Assembly: GCA_000222855.1 (NCBI GenBank)
Contig: GL995195.1
Span: 65,635-104,221, forward strand
Length of the DNA: 38,587 nt
Direction: 5' to 3'
Source of the DNA: Succinivibrionaceae bacterium WG-1
GTDB taxonomy: Bacteria; Pseudomonadota; Gammaproteobacteria; Enterobacterales; Succinivibrionaceae
The translations under genes were made by a program, and so were the position numbers. The notes under the pieces are model-generated. The model was not told where the DNA came from and made no database searches. It saw only the letters and a list, made by a program, of their open reading frames with translations. Below are positions 5,077 through 38,522 of this stretch, piece by piece; the first letter of the stretch is position 1, and the number at the start of each line of letters is the position of its first letter.

Positions 5077-5804
5077 TTAGATTCCTAATTCTGCTAATAA
5101 ATCTGCAGCTTCATCTTTTTCACTCTTTGTTGGTTCTGGATTTTGCGCTGGAACTGATTTATTTGTAGGCTTGTAATCTTCTAAGATTTGGTCAGGATTT
5201 ACATTTTCTCTTGGTTCAAAAGAATCCATTTGCAAGAAATGAGTATTATCCATAGCTAATTCCATATAAAACATATTATTGTTTTGAGTATGGAAAGATA
5301 CGCGATGTGCTTTAGGTTTATCTAGATTGGCATTAATACTAATTTTTACCATTTTGTTTAGAGTTAACATTTTGGGTTGACTCTGAGTGATATAAGTATG
5401 TAAATCACGACTTACTTTAGATGTAAAATCACCTAAAATTTGGTTCATAAGTTCGCCCATAACGTTGCCAACTTCATCAGATGTATATGACTTGGCAAGT
5501 TCTTCAGGAGGAATACCCATATTTGTTAAATAACCAGTATAAACTTCCATAGCTGCATCTGCTGAGAAATTTATAATTACTAAACCAGAGAAAGCTCCGT
5601 CAAATAACACAAATGTACCAATATCAGGTTTTAAGCAAGTTTTCGATATTCTTTGAACCATGGGAGAGAATGTAATAGTACTATGAGTTACTTCTGATAA
5701 TACTGCACTTACAGAATGGCACAAAGATAGAAGAAAATCTTGTGTAGAAAATGTGTTATTTTGTGTAGGTTGTATTAGTTGATCTTTATTTTTGTTTTTT
5801 TCAT
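5077..5804 (-). CDS. DUF3334 family protein (frame broken near the N-terminus)
   Basis: Recognised from memory as the DUF3334 family of Vibrio, Shewanella and Aeromonas relatives, with a fold related to CheC/CheX-type chemotaxis phosphatases; no function is established. Conserved stretches: MVQRISKTCLKPDIGTFVLFDG, VIINFSADAAMEVY, SDEVGNVMGELMNQILGDF and QPKMLTLNKMV. The longest open frame starts only at a TTG at 5724, inside the conserved LLSLCHSV. Upstream codons in that frame (..TQDFLLSLCHSV) continue the homology but contain no ATG, GTG or TTG. An ATG at 5802-5804 (MKK..) joins this frame if the A7 run at 5795-5801 is read as A8. That gives 242 aa (MKKNKNKDQLIQPTQ..). The C-terminal tail is charged and ends AADLLAELGI. 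Sure of the family, less sure of the N-terminus. Confidence 0.85.
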
Positions 5805-5939
5805 TTTTATCGTAGGTTTCCTCTATTATCTCTTCAATAATAATTACATTCTAATATAATTAAATTTTAAAACTAATTTAGTAATTAAAAATTGAGAGCA
5901 ATGCACAATAAAAATAATTAAAGTTATACCTAGTATGTA

Positions 5940-6152
5940 TTATTCCTTAGGTCGGTATTTTAAAAATTCTTTTAAATAGTAGAATTCGTAAGGAGTTATA
6001 GCAAGAACACCACTAATAATGATTATTGCCATATACTCATCCGGAATTTCAGGAATTCCAAAGAAGTGACAACCTATAGCTAGAATCATTTCAATGATTC
6101 CAATTGTAAATAATATTTTGGCCCAAATTGGCGCGTGAAAGATAATTTTCAT
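5940..6152 (-). CDS. Small two-helix membrane protein, unknown function
   Basis: A 70-aa frame, MKIIFHAPIWAKILFTIGI.., with two clear hydrophobic segments (about residues 11-30 and 41-55) separated by IPEIPDEYM, and a charged end YYLKEFLKYRPKE. I do not recognise a family. The helix-loop-helix pattern with a positively charged end looks like a real small inner-membrane protein rather than a chance frame. The ribosome-binding site is weak (AAAGAAA well upstream). It lies alone between the glnG terminator and the DUF3334 gene, all on the minus strand. Confidence 0.55.
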   Translation of the reverse strand: MKIIFHAPIWAKILFTIGIIEMILAIGCHFFGIPEIPDEYMAIIIISGVLAITPYEFYYLKEFLKYRPKE

Positions 6153-6204
6153 AATTAATATATTTTTCTTTTGTAATAATATGAAAAAAAATAAGACAAA
6201 ATAA

Positions 6205-6259
6205 AAAGGTCTTATAACTAAATATAATGTTAGTAATTATATAATAGTAAAAGACCTTT
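6205..6259 (-). terminator. Probable terminator after glnG
   Basis: AAAGGTCTT (6205-6213) pairs with AAGACCTTT (6251-6259) across a 37-nt AT-rich loop that has further internal self-complementarity. On the minus strand it begins 12 nt past the glnG stop and is followed by TTATTTTGTC, moderately T-rich. The long loop makes it less certain than the other terminators here. Confidence 0.55.
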
Positions 6260-6271
6260 GTTTTTATTTGT

Positions 6272-7786
6272 TTATAAATTTGTTAGATCAAGATTTTTTA
6301 ATTTTCTTGTGAGTGTGTTTCTGCCCCATCCTAACAATTTGGCAGCTTCTTGTTTATGCCCATGAGTAAATTCAAGAGCTGTGGATAACAATATTTTTTC
6401 AAATTCTGGTATGGCTTCTGCTAAAAGGTCTGTATTTCCTTGTTTCAAATGTTCTTGAACCCATACTTTTAATAAGCTTTGCCAAGTATTATTTACATCA
6501 GATACCTGTTCATAACTATTGTTATTTGTTATTTCATATTCTTTGAATTCAACATTTGAGGAGGTGTTAGATTCTTGTGAATATGTATTTTCTTGGTCTT
6601 CTGATATAACTGTTGTTTGTGAATTTGGTTGTAATTCAGGAGGTAAATCTTGAATTGTTGCTTCCTGACCTGGCGCCATAACTGTTAACCATCTGCAAGT
6701 ATTTTCTAATTGGCGTACATTTCCTGGCCATGGTAATGTGCAAAGATATTTTTCTAATTCAGGATTTAGTTTCTTGGGTTCCACATTTAATTCTTTGGCT
6801 GCATTTTGACAAAATCTTTGAGCCAACATCACAATATCTTCACGTCTTTCATTTAATGGAGGAAGATGGATTCTTATTACGTTTAAACGATAAAATAAAT
6901 CTTCTCTAAATTTTCCTTCTTGAACCAATTTTTCTAGATTTTGGTGCGTAGCTGCAATGATTCTTACATCAACAGAAATAGACTGATGTCCCCCGACTCT
7001 GTAAAATTCATTGTTAGCTAAAACTCTTAAAAGTCTAGTTTGAACATCTAAAGGCATATCACCAATTTCATCTAAAAATAAAGTTCCTCCATTTGCTTGT
7101 TCAAATCTGCCTTGACGGCTGTTATTTGCCCCTGTAAAAGCACCTTTTTCGTGACCAAATAATTCTGATTCAATGAGTTCTTTAGGAATTGCAGCCATAT
7201 TGAGTGCAATAAAAGGCTTGTTAGCACGAACACTATGTTTGTGTAGTGCATGAGCTACCAATTCTTTACCAGTTCCGGATTGACCATTTATAAGAACGCT
7301 TATAGATGAACGAGAAAGTCTACCAATTGCTTTAAAAACCTCCTGCATAGAAGGAGATTCTCCAATTATGTCAGATTGGTTATCAAAAGTAATATTGTTA
7401 ATATCTTTATCTATATTTTCTTTTAATTGTTTTTCTGCTTTTTTTACTATGTTTATAGCTTCATCTATATCAAAAGGTTTAGGAAGATATTCAAAAGAAC
7501 CTTGTTGATATGAACTTACAGCACTATTTAAATCACTATGAGCTGTAGTTATGATTATTGGAATATTAGGATGAGTTTTATGAATGATTTTTAACATCTG
7601 TAAACCATCTATTCCAGGCATTCTAATATCTGAAATTATGATTTCAGGAGCATTAGTTTTGATGGCTTCTAATACAGATTCTGCATCTTCAAAAGTTTGA
7701 GTTCTGAATCCTTCTTGTGCTAATGCTTTATCTAGAACGAAACGAATTGAGCTATCATCATCAACAATCCAAACATTTGTAGACAT
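6272..7786 (-). CDS. glnG: Nitrogen regulator NtrC (NRI), sigma-54 activator
   Basis: Response regulator that, when phosphorylated by GlnL, drives sigma-54 promoters under nitrogen limitation. Three domains are visible. The receiver has VDDD at residues 8-11 and the phospho-acceptor Asp53 in IIISDIRMPGIDG. The AAA+ domain has Walker A GQSGTGKE, the sigma-54 contact loop GAFTGA, Walker B GGTLFLDEIGD and the R-finger region LFYRLNVIRI. The C-terminal Fis-type helix-turn-helix is HKQEAAKLLGWGRNTLTRKL. At 504 aa it is longer than E. coli NtrC (469); the extra length is a Gln/Asn/Ser-rich linker before the DNA-binding domain. Its ATG lies 3 bp past the glnL stop. Two matching binding sites lie upstream of glnA. 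Confidence 0.97.
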   Translation of the reverse strand: MSTNVWIVDDDSSIRFVLDKALAQEGFRTQTFEDAESVLEAIKTNAPEIIISDIRMPGIDGLQMLKIIHKTHPNIPIIITTAHSDLNSAVSSYQQGSFEYLPKPFDIDEAINIVKKAEKQLKENIDKDINNITFDNQSDIIGESPSMQEVFKAIGRLSRSSISVLINGQSGTGKELVAHALHKHSVRANKPFIALNMAAIPKELIESELFGHEKGAFTGANNSRQGRFEQANGGTLFLDEIGDMPLDVQTRLLRVLANNEFYRVGGHQSISVDVRIIAATHQNLEKLVQEGKFREDLFYRLNVIRIHLPPLNERREDIVMLAQRFCQNAAKELNVEPKKLNPELEKYLCTLPWPGNVRQLENTCRWLTVMAPGQEATIQDLPPELQPNSQTTVISEDQENTYSQESNTSSNVEFKEYEITNNNSYEQVSDVNNTWQSLLKVWVQEHLKQGNTDLLAEAIPEFEKILLSTALEFTHGHKQEAAKLLGWGRNTLTRKLKNLDLTNL

Positions 7787-7789
7787 GTT

Positions 7790-8857
7790 TTACTCCTTTA
7801 AAGGTAGAATAATAGAAAATACAGTATGATTCTTTTCAGAAGTGCATTCTATTTTCCCGTTGTGTTGATCAATAATATTTTGAGCAATTGATAAACCAAG
7901 ACCAATTCCTCCTGTTCTTCTTGAAACCATAGGATAAAAAACAGTATCAAGTATTTCTGGAGGTATTCCTGGGCCGTTATCTATGATTTGAATTACTACC
8001 GCAACCTTAACTCTGTGACCATTGATTGTAGTTTGCATTCTTGATCTTGTTCTGATAGTAATAATACCAGGTTGGCAATTATGTTCTTTTAATACTTGTG
8101 CTGCATTGCATGTGATATTTAATATTGCCTGTTCTATTTGTTCGGATGATAGTAAAAGTTCAGGAATTGAAGGATCATAATCTCTGATAATATTAATGTT
8201 AGAAGGTAGATCCATTGTTACTAATTTGCGAACTTTTTCTATAATGTAATGAATATTACAATATGTTCTTGGTAATGCTTTTTGAGGGCCTAGTAATCTA
8301 TCAACTAAAGCTTTTAATCTATCAGCTTGTTCTATAATAACTGTAGTATATTCTTTTACTTCTTCATGGCTATTTTTGAATAGACGTTCTAGTAACTGTG
8401 CCGCTCCTCTTAATCCTCCTAAAGGATTTTTGATTTCATGGGCAAGATTTCTTACTAATTGTTGAGCTGCTATTTGTTGAGCATGTTGCAAACTTTCTTG
8501 GTTTAATTTTTTTTGTTGATCGTTCTTTCTTATTTCTAGCAAGATATAAGATTTTTCTTGAATTATAGCAGGTGTTACTATTACTTCACCTTCTATGGCA
8601 CAACCTTCCGCAACAAATGTAACTTCGTAATCTGTATAGCCAAGATCTTTGCTACGAGAATGTTTGATTCGTTCTAAATCAAGGGAGATAACTTCGAAGG
8701 CTTGAGTAAGAGTTTTGCCGATAAATTTACGGGCACTTATATTAAAAAGCTGTTCTGCTGCATTATTAGCATAATGAATGACAAGAGAGGTATCTATAAA
8801 AAAAATTGCTGTTGCAATATTTTCAAGTATTTCATTTGCATTGTTATCATTAGTCAT
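7790..8857 (-). CDS. glnL: Nitrogen sensor histidine kinase NtrB (NRII)
   Basis: Cytoplasmic kinase/phosphatase that controls NtrC in response to PII. The 355-aa product (E. coli 349) has an N-terminal PAS domain (IATAIFFIDTSLVIHYANNAAEQLF), the phosphorylated His140 in NLAHEIKNPLGGLRGA, and a GHKL ATPase domain with N box ITCNAAQVL, G1 box DNGPGIPPEI and G2 box GGIGLGLSIA. There are no membrane segments, as expected. The ATG at 8857 follows AAAGG at a usual distance. A long perfect hairpin lies 23 bp upstream of the start, between the DUF4124 gene and glnL. glnG follows after 3 bp. Confidence 0.97.
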   Translation of the reverse strand: MTNDNNANEILENIATAIFFIDTSLVIHYANNAAEQLFNISARKFIGKTLTQAFEVISLDLERIKHSRSKDLGYTDYEVTFVAEGCAIEGEVIVTPAIIQEKSYILLEIRKNDQQKKLNQESLQHAQQIAAQQLVRNLAHEIKNPLGGLRGAAQLLERLFKNSHEEVKEYTTVIIEQADRLKALVDRLLGPQKALPRTYCNIHYIIEKVRKLVTMDLPSNINIIRDYDPSIPELLLSSEQIEQAILNITCNAAQVLKEHNCQPGIITIRTRSRMQTTINGHRVKVAVVIQIIDNGPGIPPEILDTVFYPMVSRRTGGIGLGLSIAQNIIDQHNGKIECTSEKNHTVFSIILPLKE

Positions 8858-8916: not shown

Positions 8917-8936
8917 TAATCACAAAAAAGTAAGAC

Positions 8937-9538
8937 CTATTTGTGATTTTTTGCGTGCGGATTATGTGGGTTTAGGATTGAATTTCTCAAAACATTAAAT
9001 TTTATTGGAGATGATGCAATTATTTTGCCATTTTTATTGATCATTTTGGCAGTCATAATATGTTCACCAGCAGGTACTGCTCGTAAAGAAACTCTATTTG
9101 AATTAAATGTTGAACCAAATAATGAATTATCTAGAAATATTTTTATAGAATAATCATTTCTAGGGATAGGATTTATATTTAAAGTAACATTTATAGTGCC
9201 ATCGTTAGCTCTAATTGTTTCACCATTAGATGGAGATAAAATACCTATTGAATAATTAATATCAGCTTGAGAATTTGCATTAATAGAAACTGCTTGAGGA
9301 GTATATTTGGATGTATTGTAATTTACTTTAGGTTTAGCTCCTGTGCCATTTAAAGAACCTGTTCCTGATACGTTTAATGTTTCTGCTTTTTTACTTTTGG
9401 CGATTTTTTATCATCTCCGTAGTGGGTAATACCATCTTCATCAACCCATTTATAAACGCTGTCAGCATACGCATAGCTCATGCAAGCCATAATAGAAATT
9501 GTTGCTGCTGAAATTATTTTTAAAAGAGATTTATTCAT
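8937..9538 (-). CDS. Exported DUF4124 domain protein (frame broken in an A-run)
   Basis: Starts at an ATG at 9538 with AAGGTG upstream. The first 28 or so residues form a signal peptide (MNKSLLKIISAATISIMAC.. SYAYA), followed by DSVYKWVDEDGITHYGDDKK, the hallmark of DUF4124. That frame stops soon after. The next frame continues without a stop to 8937, ending ..LNPHNPHAKNHK, and contains a beta-rich, Ig-like region (INYSIGILSPSNGETIRANDGTINVTLNI). One extra A in the A6 run at 9387-9392 or at 9403-9408 joins the two as a 200-aa protein. From memory, a DUF4124 gene between glnA and glnL is common in Vibrio, Shewanella and relatives. Its function is unknown; the location suggests nitrogen-responsive expression. 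Confidence 0.75.
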
Positions 9539-14611: not shown

Positions 14612-16771
14612 TTATTTAATAATGCATTTATTAACTTTGGTAGTTAAATCATATTCTAAGTTTGATATGATTTTTGAATATGCTTGATTTTTATATGTTA
14701 TAGAATCTTCTTTGCATATACTTTGTATTTCATCAAAATATTTCATATTTATGGAAAAATTGTCACTTTTTAGAATGTCATTAAGGTTAATTTGAGGTTC
14801 ATTATTGGCTGATTGACTCTCAACATCTATGATAAAAGGTCCCTTAATGGCTTCTCCTTTTAGATTTATTTTTATAATGTTATCTGATTCTTTATTGTTT
14901 TCTTCTGTTTTTGTATGATTTATTGATATTTTTAAGTTAGAAATTTCATCAATAGCAGGAGCATTGTTACTAGAATATGAGCTTTTATTAAAAATATCAT
15001 AAAAGTCCTGAATATCTTCAGATTGCTCTATTTTATTAAAAATTTCATGAACATTTATTCCTTCTAAATTTGTGTTTTTAGAAGAAATTTCATGACTGGT
15101 AATAGAATATGCTTTTGTAAAGTTAGGTGTTAGAAAATAAGAAAAATCTTCTTCATTAGGAATACTAATATTGCCAATTATTTTAAAATCATGATTACCA
15201 TAAATATCAAATAAAATAGGTTCTTGGTGTTTGCTCCATTTTATGTCTTGACCTGTGATTTCAAAGTTGTAATATTTTTCAGAACTATTATCTTGTTTTT
15301 GATTAAGAGATTTTAAAATATTTTGATAATTATATTGTTTTGCTTGGGCTAAAAAATTGATTTTAGAGTTGTTATCATATGTTAATTCCCCTACAAAAAT
15401 ACCATTTTCAGAATCAATATGAGTTGTTAAGATTGGATTATTATAGATTGCTTTATTGAAACTAATAGTCCCCTGATTTATTGATAAATTATCAAGTTTT
15501 AATGAATGGTTATAAGGATAGTTTTGTATAAATAAATCTTTAATATCGATATTTGATTTATGAGTGAAAAAACTTAAATTTTCTAAATCACTTAAAATAT
15601 TGCAATTATTACATTGAAAGTGTTTTATTTTGGTTGTTGAGTTGAGATTTTTTAAAGTTTCTATTAACTGAGATGTAATATTAAATTCTAAGTTGTTGAT
15701 GGAAATATCTTCGATATCTAATACAGGAATTGTATTATTTTCTTCTTGTGATGAAATATAGCTAGCTGTAATGGTGATTGGAGCTTCATCTATAAATCCA
15801 GATAGTTTTATGCCGTGTTTCTTGTTCGCTTCAATTATGCCATTTACGATTGTAGTAATGCCAAAGTTTATTTCTCCAAATTTTCCTTGGATTCTTTTTT
15901 CAGAGATTGTGCCACTAAAATCATTGATTTTAGATAGCAATTGATGCCAATCATTTGCTTTTATATTGGTATTATTAGCTTGAATCTCATTAAAAATTAA
16001 TTTCCAATCAGGAACATTCCAGTTTTCTAGATAAGAGATATCTTGATTAAATAATTTTAAATTTTTAGCTGTAATTTCTTTATCTTTATAGTTAATATAT
16101 CCATCTAGTGTGATTGAGCCTTTATTCAAGTGTATTTCGCTTTTAAAAGGACATTTAAATATTGAACAGTTATTGTCTTGATTGACATTTATACTTGATA
16201 TAATTTGCTCATTAAACTTTAGATTTTCAATTTTTAAATCTGTTATTTTAGTTAAATATTTCTCATAATTATTATTTTGAAATATTGCTTCATTGGCATT
16301 TTCCAAATTGTGAGCTTTAAAAGTAATTTTTAGTTGTTCTTTAGTCAGTAAGTTTTTTATCCATAGATTTCTAATATTATCTACTTGTTCTATCCAGTTA
16401 TTACTAAAATATTTAGCCTTAAAATCATCTGTATCTGTAGTGATTTGAGGTTCGATGATATCTAAATCATTTATTTCAAATTTTTGAAATTTATTGGTTA
16501 TAAGTGATTCTTTATTGATATCCAAATAAAGTTCTTCAACTTTAATATCATTGGTAGCTAATTTATAAAGAGATATTGTTGTAGGATATAATAAATTATA
16601 TTGAATTTTTTCAATGGAAACTGGAGTGTTTAATTTATCAGAAAGCCATATTTCTAAAGGTTTTTTTATGAATGGTCCACGGACAAATAGGAAGGCTATT
16701 GCGATTAAGCAAATTGTAATTTTTATAGTACAAAAGCATATTCTTATTAAAATATTATTAGCTTTCTGCAA
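14612..16771 (-). CDS. Large AsmA-like envelope protein
   Basis: A 719-aa protein with one N-terminal membrane anchor (about residues 10-30, FCTIKITICLIAIAFLFV) and a long, hydrophilic, beta-rich periplasmic part. The segment after the anchor, KKPLEIWLSDKLNTPVSIEKIQYNLL, then LYKLATNDIKVEELYLDIN, has the layout of AsmA/YicH-type proteins (a basis set followed by repeated strands). That superfamily is linked to lipid transport between the membranes; the role of this member is unknown. Very rich in Asn, Ile, Lys and Ser, as expected from the AT bias. Its ATG lies 14 nt inside the 3' end of recG, so translation is probably coupled. Family assignment is by pattern only. Confidence 0.65.
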   Translation of the reverse strand: MQKANNILIRICFCTIKITICLIAIAFLFVRGPFIKKPLEIWLSDKLNTPVSIEKIQYNLLYPTTISLYKLATNDIKVEELYLDINKESLITNKFQKFEINDLDIIEPQITTDTDDFKAKYFSNNWIEQVDNIRNLWIKNLLTKEQLKITFKAHNLENANEAIFQNNNYEKYLTKITDLKIENLKFNEQIISSINVNQDNNCSIFKCPFKSEIHLNKGSITLDGYINYKDKEITAKNLKLFNQDISYLENWNVPDWKLIFNEIQANNTNIKANDWHQLLSKINDFSGTISEKRIQGKFGEINFGITTIVNGIIEANKKHGIKLSGFIDEAPITITASYISSQEENNTIPVLDIEDISINNLEFNITSQLIETLKNLNSTTKIKHFQCNNCNILSDLENLSFFTHKSNIDIKDLFIQNYPYNHSLKLDNLSINQGTISFNKAIYNNPILTTHIDSENGIFVGELTYDNNSKINFLAQAKQYNYQNILKSLNQKQDNSSEKYYNFEITGQDIKWSKHQEPILFDIYGNHDFKIIGNISIPNEEDFSYFLTPNFTKAYSITSHEISSKNTNLEGINVHEIFNKIEQSEDIQDFYDIFNKSSYSSNNAPAIDEISNLKISINHTKTEENNKESDNIIKINLKGEAIKGPFIIDVESQSANNEPQINLNDILKSDNFSINMKYFDEIQSICKEDSITYKNQAYSKIISNLEYDLTTKVNKCIIK

Positions 16772-18820
16772 TCTCTACTCCTGATTTATACCATCGTTCA
16801 ATAAGTTCATTCATTAGTGTTTCATCATTATCTGCTATTTTTACGGCAATGTTATTAGCTATTTCTATTAAATGAGTATCGCGTAGCATATTTGCCACTT
16901 TAAAGTTTAATTCACCTGTTTGTCTAGTGCCAATAATATCCCCAGGACCTCTTATTTTTAGATCTTGTTCCGCAATATAAAAACCATCAGAACTCTTTTC
17001 TAGAACTTTTAATCGTTCAACACCAACGCTACTGATATTATCTCCATATAAAAGGCAACAAAAAGCTTCTAGATTACCTCTACCAACTCTGCCACGTAAT
17101 TGATGTAATTGTGCAAGACCATGTCTTTCTGCATTTTCTATAACAATTAAAAAAGCGTTAGGATTATTTACGCCTACTTCAATAACAGAGGTTGCAACTA
17201 AAATGTCTATTTCTTTATTGATAAACTTTTCCATGATCTCTTGTTTTTCATTTGGTTTTTGCTGACCATGAAGCAGACCGACATTATAATTTGGAAGTTT
17301 TTCTTGAATATATTGCGAAGTATTGATGGCATCCTGACAATCGATGTATTCAGATTCTTTTACAAGACAACATACCCAATATACTTGTTCTTTTTTTCTA
17401 AATGAGTTCTAATATGTTCTATAACTTTATCTCTAAGTTTGATAGAACGTACAACTGTCACAACAGGTTTTCTATTTGGAGGTAATTCGTCAATAATAGA
17501 AACATCCATATCCGCGAGAGTAGTTTGTGCTAAAGTTCTAGGAATAGGGGTTGCCGTCATAGATAATACGTGTGGGGCATATCCACTAGAAGTTTGAGCT
17601 TTATGATTTAGGGATAATCTTTGTTCTACCCCAAAACGGTGTTGTTCATCAATAATAATTAAAGAAAGATTTTTATATTCAACATCTTCTTGAATTAAGG
17701 CATGAGTTCCTATTATTATCTGTACTGAACCTTCTTTTATTGTATTTAGTAATTCTCTCTTTTCTTTTGCTTTCATTTTTCCTGTTAAGATCGCAACCTT
17801 AACATCATACATTGCTAGAATTTGAGAAAAACTTTCATAGTGCTGCGTTGCGAGAATTTCTGTCGGTACCATCACCGCAACTTGTTTATTATGTAGGGCA
17901 ACTTGTAAAGCACTAAGAATAGCAACCATTGTTTTACCACAGCCTACATCACCTTGAACTAGTCTAGTCATTGGTTGATTTTTACTTAAATCATGGCTAA
18001 TTTCTAGAAAAGCTCTTTTTTGAGCATTGGTTAATTTAAATGGAAGCTTAGCTTCAAAATCATTTAAGAAATTCTCTTTTGGTGGTAATGCAAAAGCGTT
18101 AAAAGAGTGAATTTTCTTTTTTAATGCTTGTAGTGTTAAGTTATGTGCTACTAATTCTTCAAGAATAATACGTTGTTGGGAGATGTGTTTAAATTCAACC
18201 AACTCTAATATATTAGTATCATTGCTAGGCTGATGGATAAATCTTAGCGCTTCCTTAAAAGTAATAGGGAGTATACCAAATGGCAGAAGTTCTTTTATTT
18301 CTTCATTCTGTAAATAATCTACTGCTGATTTTAGATATTTACGCATGGCATTTTGTTTAATATTTGCTGTTAAAGGATACTCTGGAGTTAAACAAGCATT
18401 TGCATCTATAGTTATAAATTCAGGATTAGCCATTTGTAATGAATTATTGAAATTAGCCACTTTCCCAAACACAGTTACTTTGGAATTTATCTTTAAAATG
18501 TCAGCTTGGTATTTACTATAGTTAAAAAATACTAGTTGTAAAAATCCTGTATCATCTTTTATTGTGATATAAGCTGTAAGTTTTTTAGGATTTTTAGAAT
18601 TGATTTTACAATTTAATATGGTTCCCTGAACAACAGCTTCTAATGAATCATATAATTCTGAAATAGGAGTAATTTTGGAGCGATCAGAATAGTTTCTTGG
18701 AAAATGGAATAACAAGTCAGCAATAGTTTTGATACCTATCTTTTTTAAGGCAGCTGCTGACTTTGTTTTTTCTCCAAGTCCTGGAATACTATGAATAGAT
18801 TCTGTAAAAATATTACCCAT
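16758..18820 (-). CDS. recG: ATP-dependent DNA helicase RecG (frame broken in an A7 run)
   Basis: Branch-migrating helicase that remodels stalled replication forks. N-terminal wedge/OB part: IPGLGEKTKSAAALKKIGIKTIADLLFHFPRNY. Helicase domain 1: Walker A GDVGCGKT, motif II DEQHRFG, motif III TATPIPRT. This frame runs to a stop at 17360. Domain 2 continues in another frame: VYWVCCLVKESE, then ATSVIEVGVNNPNA and QLHQLRGRVGRG, to a stop at 16758. Reading the A7 run at 17391-17397 as A8 joins them into 687 aa (E. coli 693). The zero-frame codons there are GAA AAA AAG, which contain the dnaX-type slippery heptamer A-AAA-AAG. As written, the first frame lacks motifs IV-VI and could not work as a helicase. 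The AsmA-like gene overlaps the 3' end. Confidence 0.92.
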
Positions 18821-18884: not shown

Positions 18885-20222
18885 CTAAACTAATGATTTT
18901 CTTACTTTTTCAGGATAAGAGTCAAAAGAAGGTAAATCATCTATAGAGGTAATTAGAGTACTATGTTGCATTAGATATTGTTTTTCATGCATGAATTTTT
19001 CTTGCATTAGATGGTTTTTATCATGTATTAACAAGCCATTTTCTAAATCTAGTCCCCAAGCACGAGGATTTAAATTATTCCCTGTGATTAAGGTATATTC
19101 TCTGTCAACACTTAAACCTTTAACATGGTAAGTATTTTGTTCACATTTCCATAGATTTATATGCAGATTGCCGGAATTTATAAATTCTTGATGTTCTGCT
19201 ACGAATTCACGAAGATTCATTTCATATAAGTATGGTACACAACCAACTTTATTGAATTCACTTGGTTCTCTTATATAGAAATCATTAGCTTCTTTATCAC
19301 CTACTAATAAGGTAATATCAACCCCTCTCTCTAAAGCTTTGTTAATGCTCTTTAGAACAGATTTAGGTAGATTAAAATATGGAGTAAATAGAACTATTTT
19401 TTGTTCTGCAATGTTTAATAGATTTATTATAGTTTTATTAAGAACATTATTTTTTCTTCCTAAACCAACTAAAGGTGTTATACCAATTTGATTGGCCTTA
19501 ATACTTTCATTTTCTAAGTTGTATGCAGAACTAGATAATATTTTTCTTAGATGCTTTATTTCTATAGCAAGTTCTTTCGCAGATGGAATACTGTTTTGTG
19601 ATAAATCTTGCACCGCATTATTTTGATGGAATACATTTGTACAATAGTTGCACATTGAATCTGCTAAATTTCGAGAATGTATTTCATGATATCTATCTAA
19701 GCGGAACTTTTTATCTTGTTCAAGATAAACATTATTTATACTTGCTCCACTATATAAAACAGTATCATCAAATACGAATCCTTTTAGGTGTAGTACCCCA
19801 AAGATTTCTCTCTTTTTTACAGGTACTCCATAAATTATAGGATGAAGCTGATTTTTACGAGCAATATCGTTATACCATACGCTATTACCTTGCTGTGGAC
19901 CTTTACCTATAAGACCTCGTTGTGCTCTATTAAAATCTACGTAGATTCTTACGTATAACTGTGGATTTTTTTCCATAGCTTTTAATAAAGCGTCCATAAC
20001 TTCTAAACCTGCTTCATCATGTTCAAGATATAAAGCACTGATACAAATTCTTTTCTTGGCGCTGTTTATAAGTTCAATAATGCGTTGTTTAAAAAGCGTT
20101 GTTTTTTCTAAAATATGATAACTATCAGGATCAACTGCAATTTGTGAAAGGTTATTGATCTGAGATTTGGCTTTAAATTTTCTATTTATTAGAATACTAT
20201 TTATAGAATGAAATACTTTCAT
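18885..20222 (-). CDS. pssA: Phosphatidylserine synthase, phospholipase-D type
   Basis: Transfers the phosphatidyl group of CDP-diacylglycerol to L-serine, the first step to phosphatidylethanolamine. The 445-aa product (E. coli PssA 451) carries two HKD motifs: H145-L-K147 then D152 in HLKGFVFDD, and a second HVKGLSVD later, in TYHVKGLSVDREYTLITGNNLNPRAW. No membrane helices are visible, as expected of this ribosome/membrane-associated type. AAGGAA lies about 5 nt before the ATG. It starts 8 bp after the stop of the aminopeptidase P gene and is followed 64 bp later by recG, so a three-gene transcript is likely. Confidence 0.95.
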   Translation of the reverse strand: MKVFHSINSILINRKFKAKSQINNLSQIAVDPDSYHILEKTTLFKQRIIELINSAKKRICISALYLEHDEAGLEVMDALLKAMEKNPQLYVRIYVDFNRAQRGLIGKGPQQGNSVWYNDIARKNQLHPIIYGVPVKKREIFGVLHLKGFVFDDTVLYSGASINNVYLEQDKKFRLDRYHEIHSRNLADSMCNYCTNVFHQNNAVQDLSQNSIPSAKELAIEIKHLRKILSSSAYNLENESIKANQIGITPLVGLGRKNNVLNKTIINLLNIAEQKIVLFTPYFNLPKSVLKSINKALERGVDITLLVGDKEANDFYIREPSEFNKVGCVPYLYEMNLREFVAEHQEFINSGNLHINLWKCEQNTYHVKGLSVDREYTLITGNNLNPRAWGLDLENGLLIHDKNHLMQEKFMHEKQYLMQHSTLITSIDDLPSFDSYPEKVRKSLV

Positions 20223-22215: not shown

Positions 22216-22913
22216 TTAGTCTTTTGGTAATTCTTCATTAGAAACTTCTTGAACGGAAGTTACTTTATATAAATTACCTAATTTATCGCAATAGATATTT
22301 TCGATAGATGTTTTCACTAAATTTAACTCATTATTTTCTTTCTTTTTCTTATGAGTAAAGTGAATTATTGTTAAATTGCAATTGCAGAAGCAAAGAAGCA
22401 TAAATATTATTATTAAGCTTCTGAATAATAATGTTTTTTCATCAAAAACTTGATATATAAACATTAAAGAAAGAATTGCGAGAATAATGCAGAATATTTT
22501 GGTGAAATATAAAACAATAGGGGTATATACATTTCTTGATTCTATTAAGTTAACGCATGTGAAGTTGGTTGCAGTAATAGAAAGAACTGTTGCAGATATC
22601 GCTAGTTGAATGTAGTTCTTTATGAATTCTTGTTCTAAATCAAACCAAATTGGAATTATCCACATGATGCAACTTACGATTGCAAAGAATATTGCAAATA
22701 TCCACATGAAATTATTGCTACATCTATTTCTAACATATAGATTGATGTTTATGCCAAAATTGAACGCAAATACAATTAGAGATGTACAAATAATCTTTAG
22801 ATCTAGTTCCAAGGTTTCAAAGTTTGGAAAAATTACGTTTTTAATACCAAGTATTAAAACTATAATTGATAGGATTGTAAGCGCATAAAATTGTATTTTT
22901 TAAAAGGAATCAT
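22216..22913 (-). CDS. Unknown six-helix membrane protein (frame broken near the start)
   Basis: No family recognised. From a TTG at 22812 there are 198 codons with five hydrophobic segments. Upstream codons in the same frame add another helix (QFYALTILSIIVLILGIKNVIF) but have no ordinary start codon before a stop. An ATG at 22913 (MIPFKK..) joins that frame if the A6 run at 22896-22901 is read as A7. The result is 232 aa with six predicted helices and a Lys-rich cytoplasmic tail beginning HFTHKKKKENN. The helices are rich in Cys, Ile and Phe. It lies upstream of the aminopeptidase P gene on the same strand (23-bp gap) and divergent from prlC. No homology supports it, only its membrane pattern and context. 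Confidence 0.65.
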
Positions 22914-25404: not shown

Positions 25405-27464
25405 TTAGTCTATAATTTGTCCTACAATTGAACGATTAATATCGTCAATCTTGGTTATTTGTACTTTTACCTTTTGAGTTATTTGATAAGTTAGATTATT
25501 ATCAATATATATATATCCTTTTACAGGGTCTATATTGATACGATCGCGATTTTCGCAAATATTACTACCAGGAATAAATACTGTAGCGCCATTTTCTAGA
25601 ATTTGCGCTCTACATCCACCTTTACTAATATCAAATATTTCAGCATTAAAAATTGTCTTGTTTAGAAGATGTGGTTTTAAATATTCAACATATAACCAAT
25701 CTTTAACTCCTCTTTCGGCAACTTTATTTTTTCTACGAGCATCGTTCATTGATTCTATAGTTTCTGAATTTGGAATTAATGGTGATTGCAAATCAGCTAT
25801 GATAGATTTGATTAAACGATGATTTATCATATCCCCAAATTTTCTAATTGGAGAAGTCCAAGTTGCATAGTAATCAAGTCCTAAACTATAGTGAGGAGCT
25901 GGAGTTGAAGATATTGTAGCAAAAGCTTGCATTTTTCTGATGCGAGCATCAAGGTAGTCATTTTCTGATTCTGAAATCCAACGTTTCATTGCACAGAATC
26001 CCTTGATAGATAATAATTCTTCTTTATCTGTAATAGGACAATTAAATTCTTTTAGTAATTCTATTGCATCATTTATTTTTTCAGAATCTAAGCCACTATG
26101 AGCATTAAATATACCTGCATTTACCTTTTGAGCTAAAAGATTACCTGCGCAAGTGTTAGCAACGATCATTGCTTCTTCAACGATTTTGTTGGCAATTCTT
26201 CTTTGGGTAATTACGATTTCTTGTAGAGCTCCTTCTTTGTTTAATACAAAATCATATTCAGGTCTATCCTTAAAAATCGTAGTATGTTTTTGTCTGAACT
26301 CACCTCTTGCAATTGCAAAATTTCTTAATTCTTGAATTTGTTCTGCTATTACATCATTAGGCTTAAAATCTGTTTCAATGTTTTCAAGGTAATCAGAAAC
26401 TTTATCGTATACTAATTTTCCTTGAGATTTGATCACAGCAAGCATAAATTTGCTTTTTTCAAAATCTACTGCGCCGTCTTGATTGATATGAATTTGAGCT
26501 ACTAGGGAGTTACGTTCTTCATTTTCTCTTAATGAGCATAAATTATCGCTCATTTCTCTTGGTAGCATTGGGATATCTCTACCAGGAAGATAAATAGAAA
26601 ATGCTCTTTTGGCTGCTATTTTATCTAATTCAGAATTTTCAGGAATATAGCCTGTAGGATCTGCTATAGCAACACTTAAAGTCCAACTTTCATCTTCGTT
26701 GCGAGTGATATGCAACGCGTCATCCATATCTTTGGTTTTTTCACTGTCAATGGTTACAAATGGTAGATTTGTTAAATCGACACGTGGTAAATTATTTTCT
26801 AAGAATATATATTCTTTTTGTTCACTAGGGCATTCTTTTGGTAAGTCTAAGTCTCTTAAAACAACCCACCATGGCGCTTGAGGATCATTTGCATATGTTA
26901 TGTATTCTGATATTTCCACAATATGTACACCTTTATTAGTCATGGCATGTTTGGTCATGTTAGCTATAACCCAATCACCTTCTTTTAGTCTTCTATCTTT
27001 TACCAAGTTTTTAGCTTGAAATTCGTTTTTTATGGCATGATGATCTGCAACCGCAAAAAGCATTCCATTTTTAAATTTTACTCTTGCTAAAAAACGAGTT
27101 AGATAAGGTTGTACAAGTTCATATGGTTGAGCTTGTTGTTTATCACCATTTGATGTTATCTTTGCTAAAATTTTATCCCCATGAATAAGATTACGCATTG
27201 CAGGAGGTGGTAGAAAGTAGCTTTCTCTGTTTGATGTTTCTAAAAACCCATATCCTTTATCAGTTGCTTTTACAATTCCTTCAACTAAATTGCTAGCATT
27301 TAAATTTTTATTATTAATATTGGATGCAACAAAATTATTTGATTTCTTCTGTTCTTTTTTTACAGTATTTTCCTTAGCAACAGTTTCTTTATTGCTATTA
27401 GGATTATCTTTTTTTCTTTATTATATTGATTCTTTAGTTGTTGAAGGATTGGATTATTAAACAT
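25405..27464 (-). CDS. rnb: Exoribonuclease II (frame broken near the N-terminus)
   Basis: Processive 3'-5' exoribonuclease for mRNA decay. The main frame has the RNB core: FVTIDSEKTKDMDDALHI with the catalytic Asp cluster, AIADPTGYIPENSELD, YLPGRDIPMLPREMSDNLCSL, RRIANKIVEEAMI, ATWTSPIRKFGDMINHRL, and a C-terminal S1 domain (FDISKGGCRAQI). The first ATG of that frame (27198) is too late: upstream codons read GIVKATDKGYGFLE.. SYFLPPPA, the conserved N-terminal cold-shock domain. The natural start is an ATG at 27464 (MFNNPILQQLKN, like E. coli MFQDNPLLAQLK) after AGGAAAAAT. Joining them needs the A7 run at 27409-27415 to be A8, giving 686 aa (E. coli 644); the codons are GAA AAA AAG, again A-AAA-AAG. 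The extra length is a low-complexity Asn/Lys linker. Confidence 0.93.
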
Positions 27465-27608: not shown

Positions 27609-29161
27609 TTATGCACAATTTAATTTTGAAATAGCATATTCCTTAAATTTTTTTCTTTGAATTTTTAATGTTATTGGAAAATCTTGTGGCCAATTTAAGT
27701 AAATTTTAGGCACAAAAATTTTAGGTAAATATGAGCTAAATTCATTTTTTAATTCTGAGAGATTTTTATTTGTTTTTACTATAGCGCAACATATGTTACC
27801 CCAATATTCATCAGGAATAGGAACAATAACAATATCTTCGACAAGATTATATTTTTTGATTTCATTCTCGATAAATTCAGGACTGATATTTTCACCGCCA
27901 CTAATGAAGATATTATCTTTTCTACCATATATTTCTAAAATATTGTTTTCATATTTACCAAGATCTGAAGTATGTAAATATCCTAATTCATCTGTAATTG
28001 GAGTAATTTTATGATTTTCTAGTTTTCCTAAAGCTATTACATTTCCTTTTAGAAAAATTTCTTCGTGTACTATTTTGATATCAATAAAAGGGTGTTTTTT
28101 CCACTCATTATTTGTAAGTGAATATCTACATGTAATAACTTGTGAAGCCGTTTCTGTCATGCCATAACTAGTATATATCTTAATATTGGGAAATTTTTTG
28201 AGAAACTTTTCTAAAAGCTCATATGGCATAGGAGCGCCGCCTAAAATTATAGCATTTAAATTTAGGGCTTTTTCAAAAGGAACCTTAGGATTTTCAAACA
28301 AAGATTTTAGCTGAGTAGGAACAAGTGATAGTTTGTTAATATTATCTTTTAGTAATTGTTGTTCTATTTGATTTAATAATCTTTGGGGTTGCTTTTCTGG
28401 TAACACTATTTCTGATAGTGCTATTAATGATTTAAAAATGATAGATTGGCCACCAACATGATTTAAAGGCAAACTTAAAAAATATTTGTCTCCTTCTTTT
28501 AAAGGAAAAAGTTCATTAGCTCCAATTGCATTTAATAAAATTGATTTTAAAGTGTGAGTTATTTTTTAGGAGAACCTGTAGAACCCGATGTTTCTATAAT
28601 AGCAAAAGGATGTGAATGGTTTAAAAAAATATGTGATTTTAAACACAGATTTTGCTTGTTATTATGTGGGTTACTTGTTGATAGCTTGTATATAATCTGT
28701 TTATAAAAATCTTCATTAAATATTTTTTCATGTTCAATATGACAAATATTGAATTCTTTTAAATCGTTTATTTTTGAGATATCAACAGAAGTTGATAGCG
28801 GTATAAAGCTTACGTTTAAACGCATAAGTGCCAACACTGTAATAATATAACTAACAGTTGGAGTCGCAATTATTGTGAATATTTTTATATTTAAAGAACT
28901 ATTTTCATAATTGTGGATATCTTTTGAGTCTGTTGTGGATTGTTTTTTATATACTTGGTAACCAATATTTATAAAGTTTTCTTTTATATATTGGGTTGCA
29001 AGGGAGACAATGTGGTCTAATTCTTGGTAAGAAATTTTTATATTGTTATTTGATATCGCAATTTGATTAGGAGCAAGTAATGCTGCTCTTCTTAGAGGGC
29101 ACAATATATTGTTATTGTTTAGGATATTATTGATATAGTTGGTTAATTCTAAAGTACACAT
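27609..29161 (-). CDS. menE: o-Succinylbenzoate-CoA ligase (frame broken in an A6 run)
   Basis: Activates o-succinylbenzoate to its CoA thioester with ATP, for menaquinone. ANL-superfamily motifs: the P-loop TSGSTGSPKK ends the first frame (29161 to a stop at 28559). The second frame continues ITHTLKSILLNAIGANELF, LPLNHVGGQSI, YTSYGMTETASQ, GYLHTSDLG, YGRKDNIFISGGENISPEFIE and a terminal Lys region (IQRKKFKEYAI). Reading the A6 run at 28562-28567 as A7 (CCT AAA AAA ATA ACT) joins them into 517 aa. As written, the break falls right at the phosphate-binding loop, so neither half could work. Last gene of menFDHBCE; starts 12 bp after the corrected end of menC. Confidence 0.9.
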
Positions 29162-29173: not shown

Positions 29174-30116
29174 TTATTTTAATTCTTTTATAAATTTCTT
29201 TATAAAAATTTCTTTATCTAAAGCTTCATCTATAAAATATTTTTGTGTGTCCGTTCCAACTGCGATTAAATTTAATTTAGTAGAAATTTTTTCTAAATAT
29301 TCAATTCCTATAGGAGATTCAAAAGCTGAAGATAATATGAGATTATTGTTAATATTATTACTCGTTTGGGATATAAATTTAGGTAATATATTGCTTGATA
29401 AATAAAGATTTAAGCTTGGTTTTTGTATTAAATATATTTTTTATTTTTAGTGTTTTTTCTTTATTGTTGATAAATTTATTAAACACATTTTGTTCTCTGG
29501 CTAATTCATCAAGACCAAGATTGCAATTACAATTGAACGATGTTTCTAGACTATTACAAGGATCTTCTATATATAGCAGTTTTTTACCTAATAATTGAGA
29601 AATATTGTTAGCAATTTGTGGAGTTATTTGTAAATTAGCATCCACTATTATTTGGATATTATTTAATAAAGAGATTCTCTTTATTAAATATAACTCATCA
29701 TTTTGATTATATTGTCCAAATTTTATTTTAAAAGTGATGGGACTATTTTGATTGTTTTGTTCTTTAATTTTTTTTTCTATTTCTAAATATACTTCAGTAG
29801 GATTTCCTAGAACGAAATTATAAGGAGTGGCTTTATCTTCATAATTAGTCATAGGATATTCAAGCATCAGCTTAGCAAAAGCAACAGAAGGTAATGTTGG
29901 TTTGTATTCTATGTTATTGTTGAGCGCTGTTACTAATAGTTTTGCTTCTTCGAAGGCTGAGGTGAAATCTTCAGTAGAAAAATTTGGTAATGGAGCGATT
30001 TCTCCCCAAGTATCATCTTTATTTATTAGTAATCCTTTTCTGCTATTTAAGCTTAAATTTTTCATTTTTACTTGATGCTTAAAAGGAATATCGTAATAAA
30101 ACAATTTGTAAGTCAT
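29174..30116 (-). CDS. menC: o-Succinylbenzoate synthase (frame broken before the last catalytic Lys)
   Basis: Dehydrates SHCHC to o-succinylbenzoate; enolase superfamily. First frame: FKIKFGQYN with the K-x-K motif, IIVDANLQ (first metal Asp), LYIEDPC (Glu) and GLDELAR (Asp). It then runs off into KTKLKSLFIKQYIT and stops at 29379. Another frame gives YLIQKPSLNLYLSSNILPKF and ISSAFESPIGIEYLEKI to a stop at 29174. The KPSL lysine corresponds to the catalytic Lys235 of E. coli MenC, so the truncated form would be dead. The change needed is +1: either one A too many in the A6 run at 29437-29442, or two As lost nearby. The product would be 313-314 aa (E. coli 320). menB lies upstream and menE downstream. 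Confidence 0.88.
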
Positions 30117-30168: not shown

Positions 30169-31031
30169 TTAAGGGTTTCGTTTAAATTTAGAGAAGTCAG
30201 GTTTTTCTCTTTTCGTTAAAACGCGTTTCTACCTTCTTGGCCTTCTTCTGTCATATAGAAGAGCATAGTAGCGTTACCTGCAAGTTCTTGTAAACCTGTC
30301 TGTCCATCGCAATCTGCATTAAGAGCTGATTTTAAACATCTTAAAGCAATTGGGCTTTGGCATAACATTTCACGGCACCAAGCAACAGTTTCTTTTTCAA
30401 GATTTGCAAGTGGAACTACAGTATTAACTAATCCCATTTCTAATGCTTCTTGGGCATTATATTGTCTACATAGGAACCAAATTTCACGAGCTTTCTTTTG
30501 ACCTACTATTCTTGCCATATAAGAAGCACCAAAACCACCATCAAAAGAACCAACTTTTGGACCTGTTTGACCAAAAATTGCGTTGTCTGCAGCAATTGTC
30601 AAATCACAAACCAAATGTAAAACATGACCACCACCAATAGCGTAACCTGCAACCATAGCAACAACTGGTTTTGGACAAGTTCTTATTTGTCGTTGTAAAT
30701 CTAATACGTTTAAATGGTGTACCCCTGATTCATCTTTATACCCACCATAATCACCACGAATTTTTTGATCTCCACCTGAACAGAAAGCTAAATCACCTGC
30801 TCCAGTAAATATAATTGCACCAATTTTTTCATCGAAACGAGCATCACTTAGTGCTTTTTCCATTTCAATTACTGTTTGTGGACGAAAAGCGTTTCTTACA
30901 TGTGGGCGATTAATAGTGATTTTAGCAATACCATCTTTGGATTTGTGATAAAGAATATCCGTAAATTTAAGAGATTCGGTATATTCTTGCCATTCAACTT
31001 TTTCATAAAGTGAAGGATCATTTTTTTTCAT
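30169..31031 (-). CDS. menB: 1,4-Dihydroxy-2-naphthoyl-CoA synthase (last residues out of frame)
   Basis: Crotonase-family enzyme that closes the naphthoquinone ring from OSB-CoA. Very close to E. coli Men[69 protein letters not shown] and [13 protein letters not shown] start at the ATG at 31031 ([15 protein letters not shown]), preceded by AGAGAG; a longer frame from 31127 has no family support. The written frame stops straight after GRNAF at 30216. The next frame gives [15 protein letters not shown] and a stop at 30169, nearly identical to the E. coli end [14 protein letters not shown]. One more T in the coding-strand T4 run (30218-30221) joins them, giving 287 aa (E. coli 285). Confidence 0.95.
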
Positions 31032-33725: not shown

Positions 33726-35056
33726 CTAAGATAAAGCATTTACAATATTTTTAATAATATCTAATAAATTTGAATTATATGATTGTAGGATAGGTGTCAT
33801 TTTTATGCCTGTTTCTAGCCATTCATCCCTAGAATTAGATGTTGGCATAATTCCTGCTCCGGCATAAATCTTTATAGAATTTTGGGATATATGAGCAGAT
33901 CTTAGTAATACTATAAATTCTGAGTTAGTTTCATTTATTATTCCCACAGTTCCAGAAAATAATTTTTTTCGATATTATTAAATTTATTAATAAAACTATT
34001 GGCAATATTTTTAGGATAACCAAGTATTGCAGGAGTTGGATACAAAGCGTTTAAGATGTCTATTGCATTTGTAGCATCTTTTAGATTACCTTCAATTGGA
34101 GTTAAGATGTGAGTAATATAAGCTAGCTTTCTTAAAATTGTAGGTTTTACTGCTAACGCTAAACATAAATCTTTTACATCGTCCACAATACTTTGTGCAA
34201 CTATTCTATTTTCTTCAAAATTTTTATTATCACACAGTAGATTTTCATCTTGATATGGAACTGCAGATCCTGCAAGAGCTTCGGTATATAACTTATTTCC
34301 TTTTATTGCAAATAGAGTTTCGGGGGTAAATGAAATAAAGTTCTCATCAAAAGGACTTAAATCATTATCATTTGCAATGAAAGCAAAAATATAATTAGAT
34401 TTTATAGAATTGTCTGAAGTTAGAGATTTTTCGTGTAATACACGATTTTTTAATATTCCAAATATAATTTCATCTTTGTCATGTGTATGTGGAAATTTGC
34501 ACATACGAGAGAGTACAACTTTTGAAAAATTTTTATCCTGTGTAAAAAATTCCTGAGCTGTATTTACGGATTTATCAAATTCCTCGAATGATGGAATAAG
34601 TTCAAGTTCTTTTAAGTCTACAAGGTATTTTTTTTCTTCTGCATTTGCATTATCTGTAAAGCTATTCAAATTTGCTAATAAAAAAGCAGACAATTGGTAA
34701 ATTGTAGAGATTTCAACACCGTTTATAAAAGATGTTTCATAGACATTTATTTCTAAATTCTTATTATTTAGTACAAATAAAATCTTTGGAGTATATTGTA
34801 AAGAATGTTTATTATCTATAGTTTTGAGAACGAAGGAAAATTCTTGTAATTGTTGAGCTGCACCAATACCGATATGCCAAATATCAGTTTTGGTTCTAAA
34901 TATGGTAATTCTTTCTTTTGTTTGCGTTCTAAAAAAATATGCAAGATTTAATAATGTATTATGATATAAATCTTTTTCTTTAGTATTTATTTCTATTTTA
35001 GTTCTCTGGCATGTAATAGGCTTTTGATTCAATAGGTTTATAATTGTCTTAAGCAT
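33726..35056 (-). CDS. menF: Isochorismate synthase (MenF; frame broken in an A7 run)
   Basis: Converts chorismate to isochorismate; chorismate-binding family with Mg2+. The first frame (35056 to a stop at 33938) has DKNFSKVVLSRMCKF, ISFTPETLFAIKGNKLYTEALAGSAVP and LYPTPAILGYPK. It then ends NIEKNYFLELWE. The second frame continues LFSGTVGIINETNSEFIVLLRSAHI and IKIYAGAGIMPTSNSRDEWLET to 33726. One extra A in the A7 run at 33963-33969 (GAA AAA AAA TTA TTT TCT) joins them into 443 aa (E. coli 431). The second part holds the conserved Arg, the YAGAGI loop and the likely Mg-binding Glu, so the short form should be inactive. First gene of the men operon and divergent from menA across 114 bp. Confidence 0.92.
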
Positions 35057-35170
35057 ATATCTTATACTGCCTCAAAAATATATAATTAACAAAACTTCTT
35101 TTTTATATTTTATAGTTATTTTTAATTTTTAAATAAAAAAATTATCATACCACTAATTTAGAGGAAAATA

Positions 35171-36091: not shown

Positions 36092-36273
36092 TATTATTGA
36101 GATTGGAATAATTGATAGAAAATAATTTGTAACTTTTCTTATTAGGTCGTTTATTGTTCTAAATAATGTTTAAAAAATCATAAAATAATAAAAAATAAAT
36201 TAATTCAAATTACTTTTTTGTTATTGTTATATATGTAGTTTTTGATGAACTACAATTTTTACGGAGTATATGT

Positions 36274-36561
36274 ATGTCAAATGAAATAAAAAAAGAAACC
36301 TGTGACCAATGTGGTTGTAGCATTGAAATTGGTACAGTTATAAGTGATGATGATAATGTGTATGAATTTTCATTAGAAGGAAATAAGGAAGATGTTATTT
36401 CTAAGTATAATGAATATGTAGAAATTGCCAAGTCTGCAGATGAAAATGTGCAAATTGAAATGTCAGATAAAGAAGATACAATCTTTGTTAGAAAAGGAAA
36501 ATTTGTTTTTTCTTGTTCTGCTGAAAAAATGATCTTTCAATTAAAGAGTGACGCCTTATAA
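36274..36561 (+). CDS. YfcZ/YiiS family protein
   Basis: A 95-aa soluble protein of the YfcZ/YiiS family (DUF406), found in gammaproteobacteria, with no established function. The match from memory to E. coli YfcZ is the N-terminal Cys-rich CDQCGCSIEIGTVISDDD (E. coli has VCCCMDVGTIMDN) and the C-terminal FVFSCSAEKMIFQLK (E. coli FACEAEMLIFQL). ACGGAG is 8-9 nt before the ATG at 36274. The CxxCxC cluster could bind a metal; that is inference. It stands alone, with menA upstream on the same strand and a hairpin terminator downstream. Confidence 0.85.
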   Translation: MSNEIKKETCDQCGCSIEIGTVISDDDNVYEFSLEGNKEDVISKYNEYVEIAKSADENVQIEMSDKEDTIFVRKGKFVFSCSAEKMIFQLKSDAL

Positions 36562-36569
36562 TTTCAACT

Positions 36570-36606
36570 AATCTCTCTTAATGTGCCAAGTAAGTTAAGA
36601 GAGATT
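36570..36606 (+). terminator. Terminator after the yfcZ-like gene
   Basis: AATCTCTCTTA (36570-36580) and its exact inverse (36596-36606) flank a 15-nt loop, 8 bp past the stop codon. TTAATAATTT follows, moderately T-rich. Confidence 0.75.
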
Positions 36607-36836
36607 TTAATAATTTAAATCATAAAATCTTTATAAAATATAACTTTTGCAATAAATCTAAGTTTTAATTAGCATTTGCGATTCATTCATCATATTTATA
36701 TAAATAAATTATTAATGGCTATCATTTAAATATAAATTTGTTTTAATATCTTTTTTATGGATTGACTTTATAAAAATCTATATTTAGTTTTAATTTTCTT
36801 TCATATCGCTAATTTTAAATAAAAAACATAAACTAA

Positions 36837-36858
36837 AAACTAATAAATTTATTAGTTT
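36837..36858. repeat. 22-bp perfect palindrome
   Basis: AAACTAATAAA followed directly by its inverse, with no loop. It lies 137 bp upstream of mltF. It could be an operator, but AT-only palindromes also arise readily by chance in such sequence. Confidence 0.5.
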
Positions 36859-36994
36859 AAATTTAGATTGTATTAATTAAATTAAAATCATATTTAGTAT
36901 TAATATTATTAAACTTAAAATTAAGAGTTACATCAAAATAGAAATTTTTTAATGTGTTAAAATTTATAACATATGTTAAAAATAGAGAGAGTTT

Positions 36995-38522
36995 ATGCTT
37001 TTTGAATTTTTACAAAAAAGATGTAAATTATTTTTTATCTGCAATCTTATAATTCTTGCTTGTATATTATTTACAGGTAAAGCTCTCGCGTCTCCAGATT
37101 TTGAACAAGAAGATGAACAAATTGTTTTTTTAAATTCTCAAGGTGATTTACCTACAATTTTAGAGAATCATACATTACGTGTTTTAGTTTCATATGACAA
37201 TGTTGGTTTTTTTATGGATAAAGGCCGACAAGATGGTTTGTATGTTTCTTTAGTAAAAAAGTTTGTCTCTCATTTAAAGAAAAAATATTTAACAGCTGAA
37301 CGCATGAAGATTTATTTTATCCCTGTACGAGAGGATGAAATGATGAATCTTATTGCGGAAGGGAAAGGCGATATTGCGATGGGGATAAGTCCAACGCAAG
37401 AATATAAGAGATTTGTTGATTTTACTATTCCTGAAAAATTGTGGTTAAAGGAGATATTTGTAGTAAAGAATTCCGACTTTCCAATAAATTCGTTAAATGA
37501 TTTGGCTAATAGGGTGGTTTGGGTTAGAAAAAGCTCTAGCTATTACGAAAGCCTACAATTATTAAATGATTATTTAAAAGCTCATAAGCTTGCTCCTGTT
37601 ACAATTGTTGAAGCAGATGAGTATTTGACAGATGTTGATTTAGTCGATATGGTTTCTAAAGGAGAAATTCCTGCCACTGTTGTTAATGATAGTAAAATAG
37701 TTATTTGGAAAAATTCTTTGATAATATTAGTTTTATGTAAATGTGCCTATAAAAGTCAATGGAACGTTGAATTGGGCAATTAGACATAATAGCCCCAAAT
37801 TATATAAAGAAGCCAATTTGTTCTTAAGAAAATACCGAGATGGAACTCCTGAAGGTACAAAGATCTATGATCGTTATATGCGTACTCATTCTGCTTATAA
37901 TTCAAGAGTTGCTAGCAACAATCATATGCAATTAGGGATAAGTGCAGATAAATTTAAAAAATTTTCCAAAATATTTCAAAAATATGGCAAACACTATGAT
38001 ATAGATTGGATTCTTTTGATGGCACAATCTTATCAAGAATCAACTTTAAATCCTGATGCTCGTTCTGCACGAGGAGCCGTTGGTATTATGCAAGTTTTGC
38101 CAACAACTGCTCAAGAATGGTACATAGGTATCCAAGGTGTTAATGATCTTGATAATAATGTGCATGCTGGTACTAAATATATGCGATATATTATAGATGC
38201 ATATTTTAACGAACCCGAAATTCAAGAAGTTGAGCGATTAATGCTTGCATTAGCAGCATATAATAGTGGACCTAATAGAATCACAAGATATAGAGATGAA
38301 GCAAGAATTCAAGGTTTGAATCCTAATATTTGGTTTGGTAATGTTGAAAATATTGCAGTAAACCATGGAGCAACAGAAACAGTAAATTATGTAAAGAATA
38401 TTGCGGAATTATATATATCATATCAAGAAGTTTATCGTATGAATTCATCAAAAGAACAATTTCAAGACACTTCTTATATTGCTCCATTAAGAATATTTGA
38501 TTTGTTGGCAACAAATTTTTAA
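36995..38522 (+). CDS. mltF: Membrane-bound lytic murein transglycosylase F (frame broken mid-gene)
   Basis: Two-domain periplasmic enzyme that cleaves peptidoglycan glycan strands. The N-terminus has a signal/anchor (FFICNLIILACILF, about residues 13-26), then an SBP-type regulatory domain (LRVLVSYDNVGFFMDKGRQDGLYVSLV, GKGDIAMGISPTQEY). The C-terminal SLT domain has the catalytic Glu in MAQSYQESTLNPDARS, GAVGIMQVLPTTAQEW and LALAAYNSGPNRI. The first frame stops at 37783, and the second covers the SLT domain to 38522. The simplest homology-based fix is two lost bases, in the A5 run at 37709-37713 and the T4 run at 37731-37734, giving WKKFFDNISFYVNVPIKVNG and 509 aa (E. coli 518). One surplus T in the T4 run is the alternative. 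As written, the first frame lacks the catalytic domain. Confidence 0.9.

Follow-up and report, generated by a model that had tools for sequence, protein, structure and literature searches.

The frame changes that interrupt eleven genes in the 38,587-nucleotide stretch of the Succinivibrionaceae bacterium WG-1 genome analysed here (hereafter the window) can, with a high degree of confidence, be attributed to homopolymer-length errors in the draft sequence, an artefact to which the comparison of sequences points. Such errors would mostly leave a run one base too short and sometimes one base too long, at about 2 per 10 kb over the draft, and the genes are very probably intact in the living organism. 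Homopolymer-length error in the assembly was also the leading hypothesis of an initial annotation of the window. Among the explanations considered it appears the best supported, because the slips recur elsewhere in the genome but not in the relatives, strike indispensable genes present in one copy, go in both directions, and in part fall in runs of 3-5 bases.

Within the window, the frame changes were followed in the sequence itself and examined by Pfam searches on the separate halves; the named genes other than that for a small membrane protein (called 'six-helix') were also put through frame-tolerant alignment to proteins of E. coli K-12 and of relatives. A frame change is present in all ten genes that the initial annotation had named, at or near the coordinates given there. 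In addition, an eleventh broken gene, absent from that list, was found at 18885-20222; we take it to be phosphatidylserine/cardiolipin synthase-like from a reading of its protein sequence alone. It had been claimed that one added base restores a full-length product in eight of the ten genes. This is plainly the case for seven (DUF3334, DUF4124, recG, the small membrane protein, rnb, menE and menF). The eleven sites are collected in Table 1.

Table 1. Frame changes in the window and the runs at or near which they fall
Gene	Position	Strand	Run and frame change
DUF3334	5795-5801	-	A7, one base short; start codon out of frame with the conserved part
DUF4124	9387-9409	-	Either of two A6 runs, one base short
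recG	17391-17397	-	A7, one base short; helicase split
Phosphatidylserine/cardiolipin synthase-like (pssA-like)	18895-18898	-	A4, one base short near the C terminus; relative G007 at 61% identity
Small membrane protein ('six-helix')	22896-22901	-	A6; start codon and body in different frames; weak
rnb (RNase II)	27409-27415	-	A7; start region and body in different frames
menE	28562-28567	-	A6, one base short
menC	29420-29442	-	Frame change of +1, through one extra base or the loss of two
menB	30201-30221	-	One base too many in each of two short runs (near 30221 and 30205); C-terminal end out of frame
menF	33963-33969	-	A7, one base short; chorismate-binding domain split
mltF	37704-37735	+	T3 and T4 runs; probably two missing bases, separated by about 29

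In recG, Pfam places the wedge and DEAD domains in one half and Helicase_C together with RecG domain 3 in the other. Full-length RecG proteins align through the junction, and the shift placements obtained with E. coli and with two relatives lie at most 21 bases apart. Loci related to the RecG half are distant, with a best identity of 40% among the best 80 of 355. The halves of menE and those of menF belong in each case to one family, at profile positions that are adjacent or slightly overlapping. For DUF4124 the Pfam domain lies on one side only, and a 43%-identical relative aligns through the junction; the second of its two candidate runs, previously placed at 9403-9408, lies at 9404-9409.

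For three of the genes (DUF3334, rnb and six-helix), the shift comes after the start codon but before the conserved part, and the evidence for it is that the start codon occupies another frame. Within the conserved part, DUF3334 and rnb align without any event. The conserved part of DUF3334 is matched from 5796 on by relative G007 at 67% identity, and the N-terminal peptide of rnb is similar to the start of E. coli RNase II. For the six-helix gene, the relative is only 22% identical.

The menB gene had been described as missing one base and is better read as carrying two extra ones. An alignment that reaches the end of relative G007 (84% identity) requires both runs to be taken as one base over, and the aligner likewise gives two extra bases against E. 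coli (82% identity). In menC one extra base is most likely, a sign that is weak because the reference is only 30% identical and because the alignment to E. coli MenC ends before the site. In mltF, Pfam finds the solute-binding half and the SLT half in different frames. The missing bases near 37706 and 37735 are seen only at a lowered frameshift price, and at the stricter price the SLT end alone is aligned, with zero events. A third shift, at 37032, came out at the lowered price too; we took it as spurious.

As the initial annotation had remarked, not every run is affected: the window holds 149 A/T runs of at least 6 bases, most of them without a break. By our own tally, a break coincides with about 4 of 32 A/T runs of 7, with about 4 of 107 runs of 6 and with none of 10 runs of 8-9. 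Part of the slip sites lie in runs of only 3-5 bases. An Rfam scan of the window gave no match at gathering scores.

The genome is a 2.95 Mb draft in 43 contigs, 93.3% complete, with the window in contig C1. Relatives were searched among 31 genomes: besides the genome itself there were 18 from its family and 12 from its order, and no other member of its genus was among them. The sample outside the window comprised 18 stretches (14 and 4, two of the 14 consisting only of Ns), about 9% of the genome, and that from relatives comprised 20 stretches from ten genomes, with one N-only stretch left out. A codon-usage hidden Markov model was run on both with identical settings, trained per genome on its own stretches, and calls whose interval touched Ns were removed. 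Outside the window, 64 frameshift calls were obtained in 263,911 known bases (2.43 per 10 kb), as against 15 in 353,822 bases (0.42 per 10 kb) in the ten relatives (binomial p 4e-12). The 14 stretches, which lie at the starts of contigs and in one case at a contig end and were chosen regardless of genes, gave 53 calls in 188,711 bases (2.81 per 10 kb); the 4 stretches picked for housekeeping genes and urease gave 11 in 75,200 (1.46 per 10 kb). The first, stricter settings of the model recovered only 2 shifts in the window and were then relaxed. At the final setting it finds 5 of the 11 broken window genes and makes one false call, at 16764, where genes overlap. Because the model both misses and over-calls, only the contrast with the relatives is used.

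Window and sample together contain 70 calls in 302,498 bases, 50 of the deletion type and 20 of the insertion type. An A/T run of at least 6 bases lies in 27 of the 50 deletion-type intervals, as compared with a mean of 4.0 and a maximum of 9 for random coding intervals (300 draws). For the insertion type, a run of at least 5 is found in 9 of 20 intervals (random mean 3.0, maximum 8), and a run of at least 6 in 4 of 20, which is within the random range (mean 1.0, maximum 5); some insertion-type calls are overlapping genes, as at 16764. The deletion class is thus clearly tied to runs, and the insertion class less clearly. The spectrum of A/T run lengths shows no visible truncation as compared with the relatives, the ratios of successive lengths being broadly alike. 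Truncation is not strictly required by an error reading, because only a small share of the runs would be wrong. Comparison of the 23S rRNA gene with that of 8 relatives revealed no lone homopolymer indel. The spectrum and the 23S rRNA results are compatible with a small share of errors, yet give no support for one.

Alignment to homologous proteins provided a control on these rates. A reference set of 259 reading frames from relatives was placed at a minimum of 35% identity and 50% coverage, with one best match per place (99 of 379 kept). In the present genome it covered 29 genes with 11,547 codons and showed 6 events, distributed over 4 genes, although the window, itself picked for breaks, contributes 19 of these 29 genes and 3 of the 4 that are broken. 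In the relatives, 70 genes showed 0 events over 31,369 codons. With 64 E. coli proteins as references, 54 were placed here, with 7 events. The break in rpoB abuts Ns, and rpoB was therefore dropped from the counts. This left 6 broken genes of 53, three of which lie in the window, as compared with 0 of 19 in the relatives, a difference that is not significant (p 0.15). The fair test, in our view, joins both sets and excludes the window and rpoB: 4 of 48 genes are broken in this genome and 0 of 85 in the relatives (Fisher p 0.016). In-frame stops were absent from the 15,966 aligned codons of one set and from the 11,547 of the other, the two sets sharing genes.

The four broken genes outside the window are rplV (encoding L22), murJ (broken twice), rpoC and rseP. 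L22, MurJ, RpoC and RseP are indispensable in such bacteria. Over the whole genome, rplV occurs in one copy, as only two overlapping pieces, and murJ, named from its match to TIGR01695, in one copy made of three pieces. The rpoC gene is found in one place, where the conserved C-terminal segment goes on in another frame, and rseP is shifted at a T run. Most of the ribosomal protein genes tested are intact. A lineage in which rplV, murJ, rpoC and rseP were dead could not live; the death of the window genes therefore cannot be deduced from like lesions. These sites also show slips in both directions and in short runs: menB is two bases over, rpoC slips at 3-4 A, murJ at T6 and at T4, and the rplV site has no adjoining run longer than 4.

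The initial annotation had proposed two further explanations, namely tolerance of real run-length changes through slippage and very recent inactivation, and both fit the data worse than errors do. If the run lengths were real, the frames could be restored in the transcript by RNA polymerase slippage in the manner of Blochmannia and Buchnera. The AT-rich genome, the many slips at A or T runs and the well-conserved halves speak for such a rescue, and the genes proposed to be rescued by slippage in those two organisms likewise combine an AT-rich genome with a frameshift in an A/T run of an otherwise conserved gene. Rescue by slippage would be expected to need a long uninterrupted A/T tract, of about 9 bases or more. 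The present sites have runs of 3-7. In the part of the Blochmannia vafer genome report consulted, eight genes with poly-A or poly-T frameshifts, some of them informational, are thought to be rescued by slippage; tracts of at least 9 are common and reach 12, and one frameshifted tract consists of 11 A (PMC3017870), well beyond the runs of 3-7 found here. The present case further differs from Blochmannia and Buchnera in its 2.95 Mb genome, in slips that go both ways and in far more genes affected. In Buchnera, transcript insertions rise exponentially with run length and are of the order of 1e-5 per nucleotide overall, and that transcript-error survey detected no restored frame and seldom found deletions in runs (PMC5574713); genes with an extra base in short runs, such as menB, would need just such deletions. 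Moreover, 4 broken genes of 48 outside the window would imply hundreds of genes to be rescued, and we consider this explanation very improbable. A broader version takes the draft run lengths at face value and supposes that an unusually slippery polymerase or ribosome lets the organism tolerate +1 and -1 shifts by the hundred, including those in L22, MurJ and RNA polymerase beta'; in our judgement its chance of being correct is equally slight.

Programmed -1 ribosomal frameshifting at heptamers of the A AAA AAG type would act on the ribosome rather than on the transcript. A zero-frame A AAA AAG is indeed present in recG and rnb, as in frameshifting of the dnaX type, and at one of the two DUF4124 runs, and menF has the weaker form A AAA AAT. 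With DUF4124 and menF counted, a zero-frame X XXY YYZ heptamer is found in four of the nine base-short window genes, and five are without it. None occurs in the pssA-like gene, menE, mltF, DUF3334 or the six-helix gene, nor, by eye, at the rpoC, rplV, rseP and murJ sites. Hence, unlike in dnaX-type systems, the heptamer is absent at most sites. In addition, genes with an extra base cannot be served by a -1 shift, since they need the opposite one, and the relatives encode the aligned proteins in one frame (0 events). We regard such programming as extremely improbable. On the other hand, many genes might recently have been inactivated in a dying or hypermutating lineage. Since the halves are well conserved, any inactivation would be young; the conserved halves fit such an event, and a few nonsense-like changes are present. 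Against it, rplV, murJ and rpoC, each found in a single location, are hit, and extrapolating the net excess, about 2 per 10 kb, to the whole genome would give several hundred breaks. Pseudogenes would be expected among dispensable genes, with indispensable ones spared, and the breaks do not follow this pattern. Real inactivation on this scale is thus very unlikely.

Homopolymer-length errors in the draft have, on the contrary, well-described technical counterparts. The observations would fit a flow-based chemistry such as 454 or Ion Torrent, and equally a long-read consensus that had not been polished, and the reads would then be expected to carry other run lengths at the broken sites. Drafts produced by 454 sequencing contain homopolymer indel errors of the same kind. 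According to the consulted parts of two reports, Ion Torrent assemblies of Listeria contain single-base indels in runs with a mean length of 5.5 and a maximum of 9, adenine being the most affected (PMC12046094), and an assembly from older-chemistry long reads fell from 23.3% to 5.6% pseudogenes after correction (PMC12007338). Such drafts share with the present one the single-base indels, the preference for A/T runs and the splitting of genes genome-wide. Unlike in Ion Torrent, 454 or long-read drafts, some of the slips here lie in very short runs. The mechanism named in the initial annotation, homopolymer under-calling, thus holds as far as run-length error is concerned, and is too narrow if under-calling alone is meant, because some runs are too long. 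Gene or pathway loss should not be deduced from this draft. The menB, menC, menE and menF genes of the menaquinone pathway seem broken, but so, in the same manner, do rplV and murJ. The breaks are almost certainly ordinary errors in the reading of the DNA, and not a biological oddity or feature.

The codon model also called 8 read-through stops in this genome, as against 0 in the relatives. Their presence means that the lesions are not purely indels. Of these 8 stops, we judged three to be abutting genes, one to lie beside Ns, one to be uncertain and three to be possibly real; for the last three, substitution errors are as good an explanation as real changes. At 4206 in the window and at 8160 and 13936 of stretch L167, what the model takes for a read-through stop is mimicked by two abutting genes that share a frame. 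The abutting pairs are engB/gmk (in the window), rpmD/rplO and rpsS/rplV, engB and rpmD being the names we presume for these genes. One of the few nonsense-like changes is a TGA within a gene resembling what we take to be rlmI, at position 17523 of stretch L166.

Some further observations concern the genome as a whole. No 16S rRNA gene was found in it, and the 23S and 5S rRNA genes stand alone on a 3.3 kb contig (L136, G000:C39, 1-3287), which suggests a collapsed rRNA operon. A tRNA scan of 14 stretches gave two tRNA genes. The urease alpha subunit is encoded at G000:C41:127878-128228 (L156).
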